This document shows, piece after piece, positions 9,569-29,086 of a stretch of 49,137 nt of DNA. Position 1 is the stretch's first letter. Every line of letters begins with the position of its first letter. The notes beneath the pieces were generated by a model. It had not been told where the DNA came from. It did no database searches and saw nothing but the letters and a program-made list of their open reading frames with translations. Position numbers and translations under genes: made by a program. The stretch lies in the IMG/VR virus record IMGVR_UViG_3300032897_000009, positions 1 to 49,137 of that record, one strand, 5' to 3'. The stretch is from a virus.

Positions 9569-9621
9569 ACTACCATCTCCTAAGTTTAGTGCAACGGCAG
9601 TTTAACAACCATCCGTTAGTT
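9487..9621 (+). repeat. attC-1 integron-type recombination site
   Basis: R'' ACCTAAC (9487-9493, perfect RYYYAAC), five-base spacer, L'' TTGCTCAAAC, and on the right L' GTTTAACAA and R' GTTAGTT (9615-9621). The arms pair with the extra C of L'' unpaired, the hallmark extrahelical base of attC. 135 bp. The loop holds the start codon of cassette gene 1 on the minus strand. Confidence 0.75.
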
Positions 9622-10191
9622 TGACAAAAATTGCACATCGCTTTCGACCTCATTTCCCCACGCATCCCATCCGTCTTTCCTCTCTCTTGCGAAAAGCTCT
9701 ATTCTCGGCAAGTCCCCAAGCAATTCAACAATTCTATTTCGCGCATCATCTGGTTTCTGGCTGTGTGCTAATCGTTGCGTTTCGATTAGCGCCCTTACAT
9801 TGTGCTTCCTAACTAATTTATGCGCTTCCTTGCCTCGTGTTGCCAACAAGCACAGTTCTATCCCGCTTTTCATCGTATATGCGCCCATAAAACAAACTGG
9901 CTTTCCCTGCTTATTTTTCTTCTGCCACGCAAACGCCACAGTCTTATATTCAAATCCCCATGCCTCAATAACCATCATACATTTTCTCAGGTGGTAGTCT
10001 GTCGTCCAAATAAAAAGAATGGCGTTTGCTTCTGCTATGTCCGCAATAGGCAATCGTTTTATTTCCTCCGTACTCATTACTTTATATGGTGGTCGTCTCA
10101 TTCCTTTTACCGTCGTGCAGTCCGGTTGTGCTGTGCTGTCATTGTAATAACTCCACGCGGGGTCTGCGTATATTATTTGGTATTTCTTCAT
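9616..10191 (-). CDS. Cassette gene 2: MT-A70-type adenine methyltransferase
   Basis: 191 aa. DPAW at residues 10-13 is the catalytic DPPW-type motif, followed by AILFIWTTDYHL and a conserved MGAYTMKSGIELCLLATRG stretch seen in MT-A70-like DNA N6-adenine methyltransferases. It probably protects phage DNA from host restriction. No own Shine-Dalgarno site: the ATG overlaps the stop of a 28-aa leader ORF (ATGA), so it is likely made by coupled translation. Its TAA lies in the core of attC-1. Confidence 0.9.
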   Translation of the reverse strand: MKKYQIIYADPAWSYYNDSTAQPDCTTVKGMRRPPYKVMSTEEIKRLPIADIAEANAILFIWTTDYHLRKCMMVIEAWGFEYKTVAFAWQKKNKQGKPVCFMGAYTMKSGIELCLLATRGKEAHKLVRKHNVRALIETQRLAHSQKPDDARNRIVELLGDLPRIELFARERKDGWDAWGNEVESDVQFLSN

Positions 10192-17433: not shown

Positions 17434-18351
17434 TTAGCTGTGTCGGGGAAGAGAATCAACTTCTTTGATTCGTTTGAATATCTCAAAGGCTATTTGTGGA
17501 ACAATCGCGTTGCCAAGACCGTGTCCTCGTTTTCCATCTGATTCTAAACTTGCTGTATAGTTATCTTCATATCCCATCAGTCTTTCCTTTTCTATCGGCA
17601 TTAGTTTCCGCAATATAAGTGTCTTGCCATACAAAGGAAGTGTTTCCTCTTGGGGTTGCTCCGATTGTTTGAGCGACGATATTTCTACTTCTTGTTCCTG
17701 TGGAACCCGTGAAGTCAGTCGTTCCAACAGCGAAAGCGATAAGAGTTTCATTCGTTGGGTCGTTTCGTTCACCATCTCTTGTAGAAATACATAACCCCCT
17801 CTGCCCCATTTTTGACTTCGCCTTACCATTCCCTGCACCGCCTTCCTGCTCAAATAATACTTCGGCGGAACATGTGTCTCCAAAACTTCCGACAATCCAC
17901 AACCTTCGCCTTCTTTGAGCCACTCCGAAGTATTGAGCATCAAGCACTCTCCACGCCACGCAATACCCGATTTCGGAAAGCTTGGCGATGATGAACGCCA
18001 TATCTCTCCCACCGTTGACAGAAAGAAGTCCGGGAACATTTTCGAGCACAAACCATTCTGGTTTAGTTTCCTCAATAATTCTTGCCAACTCGCCAAACAG
18101 TCCGGTTCTTTTTCCGGCAAGTCCTTCTCGCTTTCCAGCAATGGAAGCGTCTTGGCAAGGGAATCCTGCTGTGAGAATGAAATCTTTTGTATATCGCCTA
18201 AGCATTCAGAGTCCTTAATGTGTTCGTGGTATACCGTGCAGCCGTTTTCATCTATTTCGCTGTGCCCTATATTTCCGTAGTTTTCCTTCCAACATCTTTG
18301 TGCCGCAAGTGCAAATCCGCCGATTCCTGAAAATAGATCAATATGTCTCAT
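17434..18351 (-). CDS. Cytosine methyltransferase locus 1, frame A (N- and C-terminal motifs plus overlapping central protein)
   Basis: 305 aa, start supported by GGAG and an ATGA overlap. Residues 1-57 carry methyltransferase motif I (DLFSGIGGFALAA); the last ~50 carry the C-terminal motif (GLGNAIVPQIAFEIFKRI). The middle 200 residues are not methyltransferase in this frame. They read SLAKTLPLLESEK...SGIAWRGECLMLN...GLSEVLETHVPPKYYLS, which I recognise as a recurrent phage hypothetical-protein pattern. The catalytic motifs are in frame B over the same bases. A full enzyme would need a -1 then a +1 shift. Confidence 0.7.
   Translation of the reverse strand: MRHIDLFSGIGGFALAAQRCWKENYGNIGHSEIDENGCTVYHEHIKDSECLGDIQKISFSQQDSLAKTLPLLESEKDLPEKEPDCLASWQELLRKLNQNGLCSKMFPDFFLSTVGEIWRSSSPSFPKSGIAWRGECLMLNTSEWLKEGEGCGLSEVLETHVPPKYYLSRKAVQGMVRRSQKWGRGGYVFLQEMVNETTQRMKLLSLSLLERLTSRVPQEQEVEISSLKQSEQPQEETLPLYGKTLILRKLMPIEKERLMGYEDNYTASLESDGKRGHGLGNAIVPQIAFEIFKRIKEVDSLPRHS
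17567..18205 (-). CDS. Cytosine methyltransferase locus 1, frame B (catalytic core)
   Basis: An open frame of 212 aa holding the C5-methyltransferase centre: GFPCQD (catalytic Cys17), LENVPG (Glu55) and QRRRR (97-101), plus a variable target-recognition region. It lacks motif I and the C-terminal motif, which are in frame A. An ATG at 18205 exists but has no clear binding site. Either a split/frameshifted gene or a natural overlap. It may be inactive as annotated. Confidence 0.6.
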   Translation of the reverse strand: MLRRYTKDFILTAGFPCQDASIAGKREGLAGKRTGLFGELARIIEETKPEWFVLENVPGLLSVNGGRDMAFIIAKLSEIGYCVAWRVLDAQYFGVAQRRRRLWIVGSFGDTCSAEVLFEQEGGAGNGKAKSKMGQRGLCISTRDGERNDPTNETLIAFAVGTTDFTGSTGTRSRNIVAQTIGATPRGNTSFVWQDTYIAETNADRKGKTDGI

Positions 18352-18471: not shown

Positions 18472-18478
18472 GTTATAC
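18472..18478 (+). repeat. Lone attC core (R') at the right border of the replication block
   Basis: GTTATAC, the same core as in attC-10, supplies the TAA stop of the second cytosine methyltransferase. I see no convincing paired arms to its left, so this is probably what remains of an attC cut off when the replication block came to lie here. Confidence 0.45.
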
Positions 18479-19465
18479 GGACACGGCGGCAATGGCTCTA
18501 AAAATCTCAAAAGCCACTTGCGGCACAATCGCGTTTCCTAATCCTTTAAGTCTGTCCATCCTATGGGGTATCCCATTAGCCACTCGACCCACTCCGGGTT
18601 CAGTTGACCACCAATCACTGTCGCAAGGTTCTGTCCACCTTGTCCATGTTCTCCCGGTGTTTGCCATGCTCTCGCTGTTGGCGTTGGAAACATTTCCCTT
18701 GCCAGTACACTCTCCAAGTTGTTGAATTTGTCCATCGATCGATTTGGTGTCACTGCACCGGTCATCCTTGCCCTCGGTGTTGGAAGCAATCCCGCTCTTG
18801 CAAGGATGTGAAGCGAGGACTGTATTTTCTTTCCGTTCGCTTTTTTGAAATATGTTTTGTGGAATGTCCAATCCTCTTTTATTTTCCTTCCATCCTCGCT
18901 TGCTCCGGGCGTTGGCAACAATCCATATTCTGTCCCGTCTATGGTTGGCACCGATACCCGCAGCCGGAATAAGGAACGTTTGTGTTTCATAGTTGAGTGC
19001 TTCCAAGTCATCAAGCACGTTGTCGAGTGCCATCTTAACGATACCAGCAACATTTTCGCCAACGATCCAAGCCGGCCTGGCTTCCGATATAACTCTAAGC
19101 ATCTCAGGCCAGAGATAACGGTCATCTTCCTTGCCTTTTCGCTTCCCGGCAACACTAAAAGGTTGGCAAGGGAATCCGCCGGAAACAACGTCAATGGTTC
19201 CTCGGTATTGTGTTCCGTCAAAGTCTCGTATGTCGCGGTATCGTTTTGCATTCGGAAAGTTCCTTTCTAAAACCTTTGTGCAGTAATCATCAATCTCAAC
19301 TTGGAAAACATTTTCCCATCCTGTCCATTGTGCCGCAAGATCAAATCCGCCAATGCCCGAAAAAAGACTGCCGTGCCGTATAACACGCCGCTCAACGGTG
19401 ACGGGATGAGCGTGGTTGCAATCTTCCGTTTCAGTAATATTTTTATTGGTATCGGCATTCATCAT
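18473..19465 (-). CDS. dcm: Cassette gene 7: intact DNA cytosine-5 methyltransferase
   Basis: 330 aa, all key motifs in one frame: LFSGIGGFDLAA (motif I, ~34-45), GGFPCQPFSVAGKR (catalytic Cys100), GENVAG (~136-141), RRDRIWIVA, and GLGNAIVPQVAFEIF at the end. Methylates cytosine, probably to evade restriction. The first ~30 residues, through VERRVIRH, are encoded by attC-7; the TAA lies in the lone core at 18472. No clear binding site before the ATG. A second long ORF overlaps it in the +1 frame. Confidence 0.92.
   Translation of the reverse strand: MMNADTNKNITETEDCNHAHPVTVERRVIRHGSLFSGIGGFDLAAQWTGWENVFQVEIDDYCTKVLERNFPNAKRYRDIRDFDGTQYRGTIDVVSGGFPCQPFSVAGKRKGKEDDRYLWPEMLRVISEARPAWIVGENVAGIVKMALDNVLDDLEALNYETQTFLIPAAGIGANHRRDRIWIVANARSKRGWKENKRGLDIPQNIFQKSERKENTVLASHPCKSGIASNTEGKDDRCSDTKSIDGQIQQLGECTGKGNVSNANSESMANTGRTWTRWTEPCDSDWWSTEPGVGRVANGIPHRMDRLKGLGNAIVPQVAFEIFRAIAAVSV
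18538..19251 (-). CDS. Overlapping +1-frame ORF inside the cytosine methyltransferase gene
   Basis: 237 aa, fully inside the methyltransferase gene in the +1 frame, starting at an ATG that has AAGGA nine to ten bases upstream. The translation (DSLANLLVLPGSEKARKMT..., repeated LLPTP, and the end NPEWVEWLMGYPIGWTDL) matches a pattern I know from separate phage hypothetical proteins found near dcm genes. That a shifted frame carries it suggests real overprinting, not chance. Whether it is made is untested. Confidence 0.5.
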   Translation of the reverse strand: MQNDTATYETLTEHNTEEPLTLFPADSLANLLVLPGSEKARKMTVISGLRCLELYRKPGRLGSLAKMLLVSLRWHSTTCLMTWKHSTMKHKRSLFRLRVSVPTIDGTEYGLLPTPGASEDGRKIKEDWTFHKTYFKKANGKKIQSSLHILARAGLLPTPRARMTGAVTPNRSMDKFNNLESVLAREMFPTPTARAWQTPGEHGQGGQNLATVIGGQLNPEWVEWLMGYPIGWTDLKD

Positions 19466-20463: not shown

Positions 20464-20516
20464 ACTACAATTCCTTTTGTTTTGTGCATCCGCAGCTTAC
20501 GTGCAAATCGTTATAC
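20385..20516 (+). repeat. attC-10 integron-type recombination site
   Basis: R'' GCCTAAC (20385-20391, perfect), arm GCACGTCAAGCTG; right arm CAGCTTACGTGC and R' GTTATAC (20510-20516). Thirteen-base arms pair exactly apart from one unpaired C. 132 bp. Confidence 0.88.
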
Positions 20517-21272
20517 GGCAGCGAACTGCATTGGCAATTGTAAAAGGTATTCATTAAATCGCTTCTCCTGTGCTTGAAAGTAATCGCTGTCTATTTCGCA
20601 TCCAACAAAATCAAGACCCGCCTTATGGCAAGCTATACGAGAGCTTCCGCTTCCTAAATGGGTATCTAAAACATTGCTTCCCTGTTCGGCAAAATTTTCT
20701 ATAATCCACCTGTAAAGCTCAATCGGTTTTTGTGTCGGGTGTATTCTTTGTTCCTTGTTTTTCATATTACCCTGCAACATTCCTTGCCACTTGTATGTAA
20801 ATCTTCTTATGCTTCCATCTAATGATGTCCAAGCCAATTCTATCCCCGAAAATTGCTTATCGCAACCAGAGGGTATCTTATCCCAAACAATCCATTGGCT
20901 TGATTTTGGCAAGAAGTCGGTATAGTGTTGCGCTCCAAATATAATTTGATCTTGGCTCACTCTTCTTAGTTCATCAAAGTATTCCTTAGTCGGTCTTTCC
21001 GTATCATCGAAGTGTTTATACAGGTTTAATTTTGCCGCCTGTGGTTTCCCTCTTGAAATAATTCCATCCTCTTCGTTACAATAACCAATGCCATAAGGCG
21101 GGTCAACAATTGCCAATGCAAAGAACTTATCAGGTACAGTCTTCATGTATTCCATGCAATCTATGTTCAGTGCAATGCTCTGGGGCTGCCGTATAACCAG
21201 CGGCTCAACCGGATGTAATGAGCGTTCCGTTTTAATTTCCGTATCAGTTAATATGTTTATTTGTTTCGACAT
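20511..21272 (-). CDS. Cassette gene 11: N4/N6 DNA methyltransferase (beta class)
   Basis: 253 aa. DPPYG (57-61) is the catalytic motif; the SAM site LDTHLGSGSSRIAC lies near the C-terminus, so the order is that of beta-class amino-methyltransferases. HPTQKP precedes it. Methylates adenine or cytosine at the exocyclic amine, likely for anti-restriction. Residues 1-28, through VEPLVIRQ, come from attC-11. TAA from the core of attC-10. Confidence 0.93.
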   Translation of the reverse strand: MSKQINILTDTEIKTERSLHPVEPLVIRQPQSIALNIDCMEYMKTVPDKFFALAIVDPPYGIGYCNEEDGIISRGKPQAAKLNLYKHFDDTERPTKEYFDELRRVSQDQIIFGAQHYTDFLPKSSQWIVWDKIPSGCDKQFSGIELAWTSLDGSIRRFTYKWQGMLQGNMKNKEQRIHPTQKPIELYRWIIENFAEQGSNVLDTHLGSGSSRIACHKAGLDFVGCEIDSDYFQAQEKRFNEYLLQLPMQFAAV

Positions 21273-28327: not shown

Positions 28328-29086
28328 TTATTTCACAAGCCCGATTTCTTTCAAATCTTTTTCAGCAACAATCGTACATTGGAATACTCGGAACTTGCCA
28401 TCCGTTGCCGTTGGAATTGCTGCAATATCTTTTGCCATGAACTCAGCAACAAGAATTCTATATCCCTCCTGCCACTCTCTCATGCACCAATCAAGCGTGG
28501 CAAGATTTATGCCCTCGGCACATTGTTTTTCTTCATCTGTGCTCGCGGAAGGAACCGAATACTTCCCTTTGAGTTTGTAGGTAATACCGCCGTTGAATGG
28601 TGCAAGGCCGTCCTCTTTTACCAATTTGTAGGCGCGAATTTTACCGGGCTGATCCAGAAGGATTCGCAAAGACGTGCAGAGATGTTTGTTTATTCCTTTT
28701 GTGCCCCGAAGGTCTGCGCCCCGAAGGTCTGCGTCCCAAAGGTATGCGCCCCGAAGGTCTGCGCCCTGAAGATCTGCGCCCTGAAGGTATGCGCCCCGAA
28801 GGTCTGCGCCCTGAAGGTCTGCGTCCCGAAGGTATGCGCCCTGAAGGTCTGCGTCCCGAAGGTATGCGCCCTGAAGATCTGCGCCCTGAAGGTATGCGCC
28901 CTGAAGATCTGCGCCCTGAAGGTCTGCGCCCCGAAGGTCTGCGCCCCGAAGGTATGCGTCCCGAAGGTCTGCGCCCCGAAGGTCTGCGCCCTTCTTTACT
29001 GCCGCTTCGATACATAATTTCATGGATTCTGTTTCAAGCGCAAACAACACGCTCGCATTGTATCTACTTTTTATCTGGATTTTCAT
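28328..29086 (-). CDS. Pentapeptide-repeat protein with DUF5758-like C-terminus
   Basis: 252 aa. Residues ~33-133 are about 20 A(D/Y)L(R/Q)(G/D)-type pentapeptides, forming a right-handed quadrilateral beta helix, sometimes a DNA mimic. The C-terminal 115 residues ([20 protein letters not shown]...) fit the DUF5758 domain that often follows such repeats. The 15-bp DNA repeat (about 28700-28994) is a recombination hotspot candidate. GAGGAGAG precedes the ATG. Confidence 0.85.

Follow-up and report, generated by a model that had tools for sequence, protein, structure and literature searches.

C5-cytosine methyltransferases composed of two polypeptides are rare, M.AquI and M.EcoHK31I being such enzymes (PMC3404938). 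In M.EcoHK31I (YGGCCR), motifs I–VIII and X belong to the large polypeptide and motif IX to the small one (PMC3404938, citing Lee, Kam and Shaw 1995); the small polypeptide, reportedly of about 176 amino acids, is reported to be nested out of frame within the large-polypeptide gene (the 1995 paper). M.AquI (CYCGRG) is also split, its small polypeptide containing some of the variable region together with motif IX (PMC3404938), as well as motif X. Single-chain enzymes of the M.HhaI type have an in-frame motif IX between the recognition domain and motif X. In the multispecific C5-methyltransferases of SPbeta-group phages, several exchangeable recognition modules of ~40 amino acids separate motif VIII from motif IX, and a single chain and frame encodes both these modules and the catalytic core. 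In Paracoccus, C5 enzymes of relaxed specificity have been reported from prophages (PMC3925955).

The locus considered here belongs to a virus record of 49,137 bases, analyzed at its full length (hereinafter, the window), which encodes portal, terminase, major head protein, DnaB-like helicase, Erf-like protein, and further methyltransferases. We refer to the frame-0 methyltransferase ORF as alpha, and to the nested product of the +1 frame as beta (Table 1). The sequence-only reading of the window had claimed a 237-codon +1 ORF with an ATG and an upstream AAGGA inside an intact dcm gene, and this held; it gave no strand, which is minus. The pair resembles M.EcoHK31I in that the large polypeptide has motifs I–VIII and X but lacks motif IX, and in the nesting of the second polypeptide in the other frame (as reported for M.EcoHK31I). 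Differences are that the window beta is longer and contains cassette arrays, and that the predicted target recognition domain (TRD) of M.EcoHK31I is in its large subunit (PMC3404938), whereas we argue that recognition would lie in beta, because it is in the beta frame that selection acts on the region from motif VIII to motif X. Unlike M.AquI, the window gene has motif X in alpha; unlike M.HhaI, its alpha lacks an in-frame motif IX; and unlike the modules of the SPbeta group, the beta cassettes are not in the chain and frame of the catalytic core.

Table 1. Features of the nested gene pair (positions in the window).
Feature	Position	Strand	Evidence or comment
Alpha, C5-cytosine methyltransferase, 330 aa, frame 0	18473..19465	minus	motifs I–VIII and X; motif IX not in frame
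Beta, 237 aa, +1 frame, ATG start, phrog_1008	18538..19251	minus	wholly inside the alpha ORF
AAGGA, Shine–Dalgarno-like, 9 nt upstream of the beta ATG	19265..19261	minus	sequence
Double-coded core: motifs IV–VIII, alpha aa 92–187, over N-terminal beta	18908..19190	minus	both frames selected (+1 identity, codon-position rates)
Linker, alpha aa 190–283	18617..18898	minus	beta is the selected frame, alpha merely kept open (N/S, stop-free alpha)
Beta cassette 1 (LPTPGASEDG...), beta aa 112–155	18787..18918	minus	xPTP module positions
Beta cassette 2 (LPTPRARMTGAVTPNRSMDKFNNLESVLAREM), beta aa 156–187	18691..18786	minus	in a 39-module cluster common to 36 betas
Beta cassette 3 (FPTPTARAWQ...), beta aa 188–215	18607..18690	minus	xPTP module positions
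Beta motif-IX-like segment QLNPEWVEWLMGYPIGWTDL, beta aa 216–235	18547..18606	minus	conserved residues and register of the canonical motif IX profile
Alpha motif X (GLGNAIVPQ region)	18518..18544	minus	frame 0 resumes at the beta end; invariants G310, N311; tail N/S 0.27

Alpha matches PF00145 (E=9.4e-47, aa 31–255) and phrog_363 (E=3e-80). The proposed membership of the nested product in a known phage family also held: an HMM search of the 237-aa product, suggested in the same reading, yielded phrog_1008 (E=1.9e-37, aa 15–235) and no match in Pfam or NCBIfam. The phrog_1008 profile matches 107/107 aligned relatives, and beta lengths across the family range from 158 to 298 aa; a profile built from 107 betas had no match among PDB sequences. 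Both phrog_363 and phrog_1008 are annotated as DNA methyltransferase in PHROGs and listed as separate families, and the entries, as shown, do not state that the two are frames of one gene.

The openness of the +1 frame was assessed for 108 genes, that is, the window gene and 107 relatives fetched on alpha similarity alone, against 200 shuffles per gene of synonymous codons, with the alpha protein and its codon usage held constant. In the window gene, the +1 frame is open over as many as 242 codons, a length reached by none of the 200 shuffles (mean 108, maximum 204). The mean span over all genes was 240 codons versus 103 expected, and in 91% of the 108 genes the observed span was matched by at most two of 200 shuffles. 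The +2 frame showed no such excess (52 codons versus 55 expected, significant in none of the 108 genes), nor did the +1 frame of 29 control canonical C5 enzymes with in-frame motif IX (60 versus 64 expected, 0/29 significant).

Selection on beta and its boundaries are shown by sequence evidence. In 138 non-redundant genes, the identity of +1 residues exceeded that in the shuffle null throughout beta: 0.50 versus 0.32 at alpha aa 92–120, 0.44 versus 0.26 at 121–150, 0.43 versus 0.23 at 151–187, 0.25 versus 0.13 at 201–283, and 0.48 versus 0.22 at 284–308. Outside beta, it was barely above the null (0.223 versus 0.215 at alpha aa 30–68, 0.218 versus 0.205 at 309–328), so that the excess conservation has sharp edges at the ends of the beta ORF. 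As z-scores are inflated by the relatedness of the genes, we rely on this contrast between regions instead. In 19 independent close pairs, N/S was 0.24 for alpha and 17 for the +1 frame in the N-terminal part, 8.64 for alpha and 0.83 for beta in the linker, and 0.27 for alpha and 13 for the +1 frame in the tail. Thus, in the stretch from motif VIII to motif X, coding selection acts in beta, and alpha is merely kept free of stops. Codon-position rates, which rest on metagenome and genome contigs, likewise assign the linker to beta and the N-terminal part and tail to alpha. Alpha was stop-free in 133/133 genes (mean probability given beta 0.13, summed log10 P −216); these genes had been chosen for intact alpha, and hence this result is not free of data selection.

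Beta also has its own start, with a twofold enrichment over shuffles shown by the sequences: a +1 start codon with a Shine–Dalgarno match of at least four bases near the beta start was found in 110/136 genes, versus 55 in shuffles, and 49 of the 110 use exactly the same codon. We consider it very likely, from the sequence evidence, that beta is under selection as a protein and has an independent start. The sequence-only reading, which proposed codon-level selection tests in both frames, would have been refuted by a second frame without selection, together with homologues existing only as unannotated shifted frames. Neither applies: purifying selection on the second frame is strong, and some phage records annotate beta.

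The absence of an in-frame motif IX from alpha is likewise shown: in an alignment of 77 sequences, alpha has motifs I–VIII and X only, and it aligns with M.HhaI over aa 29–184 only (motifs I–VIII). At the place expected for motif IX, beta has a near-invariant end, LNPxWVEWLMGFPxGWT (...LNPEWVEWLMGYPIGWTDLKD in the window beta); over 107 relatives, P219 and G227 are invariant, and L217, E223, M226, P229, G231, W232, and T233 are near-invariant. A BLOSUM-based profile of 29 canonical motifs IX has its best score in register at the C-terminus in 87/107 betas, the window beta, where the top-scoring position is not C-terminal, not being among them. The score rarely exceeds the 99th percentile of shuffles, and thus the profile gives a location without a significant score. 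Neither hhalign of beta against nine canonical enzymes nor a strict motif-IX matrix built from nine sequences yielded a match.

Stronger evidence for the role of beta in supplying motif IX, which remains inferred, comes from natural fusions. In-frame fusion of the alpha catalytic core (motifs I–VIII) to the motif-IX-like end of beta is observed in three lineages, namely, L140, L435, and one clade on four contigs (L405, L407, L454, L464), whose fusions also contain cassettes. An AlphaFold model of beta alone (pLDDT 62.6, pTM 0.26) was too poor for a fold search. The model of the L454 fusion has a mean pLDDT of 77, and superimposes on M.HhaI (model 1–244, chain residues 12–279) with Z 19.6 and rmsd 1.7 over 163 aligned residues; the pLDDT of its beta part is about 35–65, and hence the placement of beta is weak. 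This predicted structure is consistent with a motif IX position, but is no proof of it.

The middle of beta consists of units that begin with L/W-x-T-P. There are 2.0 of them per protein, compared with 0.18 after shuffling of the sequences, and their spacing is 34 residues. From 254 betas, 577 units were extracted, with a median length of 40; the largest cluster (247 units) is probably a chained mixture. Unit types recur at differing positions, and the betas that share them have cores no more similar to each other than those of random pairs: the median core similarity of betas sharing a unit cluster is mostly 0.37–0.50 versus 0.44 for random pairs (0.26–0.31 in two small clusters). Whole units differ even among closely related E. 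coli phages, K1ind1, K1ind2, ZCEC5, Bas72, ST20, and phiEc3 (Kagunavirus genes); from the E. coli isolates, only beta sequences were used. Shuffling of cassettes between phages is thus shown by sequence evidence. Recognition modules of multispecific phage methyltransferases behave like these units.

The nested pair is found in phages and phage-like elements of Pseudomonas, Acinetobacter, Lacticaseibacillus, Paenibacillus, E. coli, Edwardsiella, Klebsiella, Leptospira, and Salmonella. It is absent from the C5 genes of Thermus phage P74-26, Mycobacterium phage ArcusAngelus, and an LlaJI-type system; in Rhodobacter phage RcBigEagle the +1 frame is open, yet not clearly above the GC-driven expectation (12 of 200). 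Beta was observed in none of 14 control genomes and in 4/299 genomes of one bacterial phylum. Both frames are annotated in Paenibacillus phages Shelly and Diva (“internal gene”), and in E. coli phages K1ind1 and K1ind2 (ORF28/29, beta being ORF28). In the literature searched, which covered few subscription papers, we found no report of the nested arrangement in phages, the only mentions being those of M.EcoHK31I.

The claim that the family is encoded within a shifted frame of dcm held, as 240/243 distinct betas have no stop in the alpha frame; this set was partly found with beta itself, and so is biased towards beta, not towards intact alpha. The claim of a separate phage protein beside dcm genes was not supported: the copies are nested, and a search for stand-alone beta genes yielded none fully free of alpha, beta having been found at methyltransferase genes only. 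The sole partial exception is L458 (9178–10222), where the 170-codon open frame of alpha ends just after motif VIII and beta continues alone to its WVEWLMG end, passing 17 stops of the alpha frame; in L332 and in L349, the alpha frame contains a single stop.

Taking this into account, the locus likely encodes a two-polypeptide C5-cytosine methyltransferase with beta as the recognition and motif IX subunit, although this is an inference made without expression, binding, or methylation data. Alpha would supply the AdoMet-binding and catalytic core (motifs I–VIII) and the C-terminal motif X, and beta, translated from its own internal Shine–Dalgarno/ATG, would supply target recognition through one to several exchangeable ~40-residue cassettes followed by the motif-IX-like end. 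The two chains may assemble into one enzyme, methylating phage DNA at sites set by the cassettes of beta and presumably evading host restriction. It is by inference alone that we propose assembly of the two chains, recognition of DNA through beta, a part for motif IX, the need of both chains for methylation, and the biological purpose. The model also does not explain why the half of beta over the catalytic core is conserved. Beta is likely better read as the missing recognition and motif IX part of the methyltransferase, its role being inferred, than as an unrelated de novo protein.

Three other explanations can be considered. Firstly, beta could be genuinely overprinted but have a function of its own (e.g., as a regulator or an anti-defence protein), only sharing the locus with the methyltransferase. 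All coding evidence for beta fits any function, and beta has no sequence match in Pfam, NCBIfam, or PDB. However, canonical enzymes with in-frame motif IX never have a significant +1 frame, and beta-bearing alphas lack motif IX; alpha–beta fusions occur; beta sits where canonical enzymes carry the TRD and motif IX, and its cassettes are exchanged in the manner of recognition modules; and beta is found at methyltransferase genes only, in 240/243 cases over an open alpha frame. Hence, we regard this explanation as unlikely.

Secondly, ribosomes translating alpha could shift into the +1 frame once past motif VIII, giving one chain with motifs I–VIII, TRD, and motif IX without internal initiation. 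The natural in-frame fusions represent such a chain in some phages, and in L458 alpha stops after motif VIII and beta goes on. On the other hand, beta is conserved from about aa 92 of alpha (motif IV), far upstream of what a late frameshift would require, its start codon with Shine–Dalgarno is enriched and clustered at one codon, and alpha stays open to motif X; hence frameshifting seems very unlikely, although no scan for slippery sites was made. Finally, that the +1 frame is open only through the conserved residues and codon bias of alpha, its product being unselected, is all but excluded and refuted for the family as a whole, since, although shuffles also yield long +1 spans (mean about 103 codons), those preserving the alpha protein and codon usage fail on length, conservation, and the N/S pattern, and canonical C5 enzymes show no excess openness of the +1 frame.

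A bolder reading, towards which we lean by a modest margin, is that of a widespread class of phage methyltransferases in which the +1 frame of the catalytic gene encodes the specificity subunit. In this reading, double coding would be a route for fast change of specificity, as cassettes would be inserted, lost, and swapped in the +1 frame, and in the catalytic frame that DNA would encode no more than a tolerant linker. Few long overlapping genes on the same strand are conserved across distant groups, and the case for them usually rests on single examples; the hundreds of natural copies available here allow for clean tests of both frames. If true, phage genes now annotated as single “DNA cytosine methyltransferases” would each represent only half of an enzyme, the specificity part would be unknowingly destroyed when alpha is recoded, and a testable account of quick change of methylation specificity in phages would be available.

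Several minor observations concern other methyltransferases and overlapping frames. In L398 (700–2300), the end of one alpha/beta pair is directly followed by a second pair, as tandem copies. In the window, a second C5-methyltransferase-like gene lies just downstream (17434..18351 and 17567..18205, both minus), with motif I and motifs IX/X in one frame and motifs IV–VIII in another. In Virus Rctr41k (KX853513), motifs I and IV–VIII are in the same frame, so that the window copy has a one-base shift near 18195; it could be a mutation, an assembly error, or recoding. A different nested +1 ORF, annotated as a C5 methyltransferase beta subunit, occurs in Streptococcus phage MM1 (L006, 3001–4158 and 3152–3577): it ends with SLSDILEEEVDERYFLS... 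and overlies motifs IV–VIII of an alpha that has an in-frame motif IX, the +1 frame being open over 161 codons versus 60 expected. Segments similar to it are present in the downstream gene of the window and in Mycobacterium phage Dallas, and a second class of nested subunits is conceivable. Two further DNA methyltransferase genes are found at 9616..10191 (minus; phrog_359, E=3e-66) and 20511..21272 (minus; phrog_67, E=2e-39), and therefore the virus has at least four methyltransferase loci. A pentapeptide-repeat-like protein is encoded at 28328..29086 (minus), its A-D/Y-L-R/Q-G/D repeats giving long open frames on both strands.
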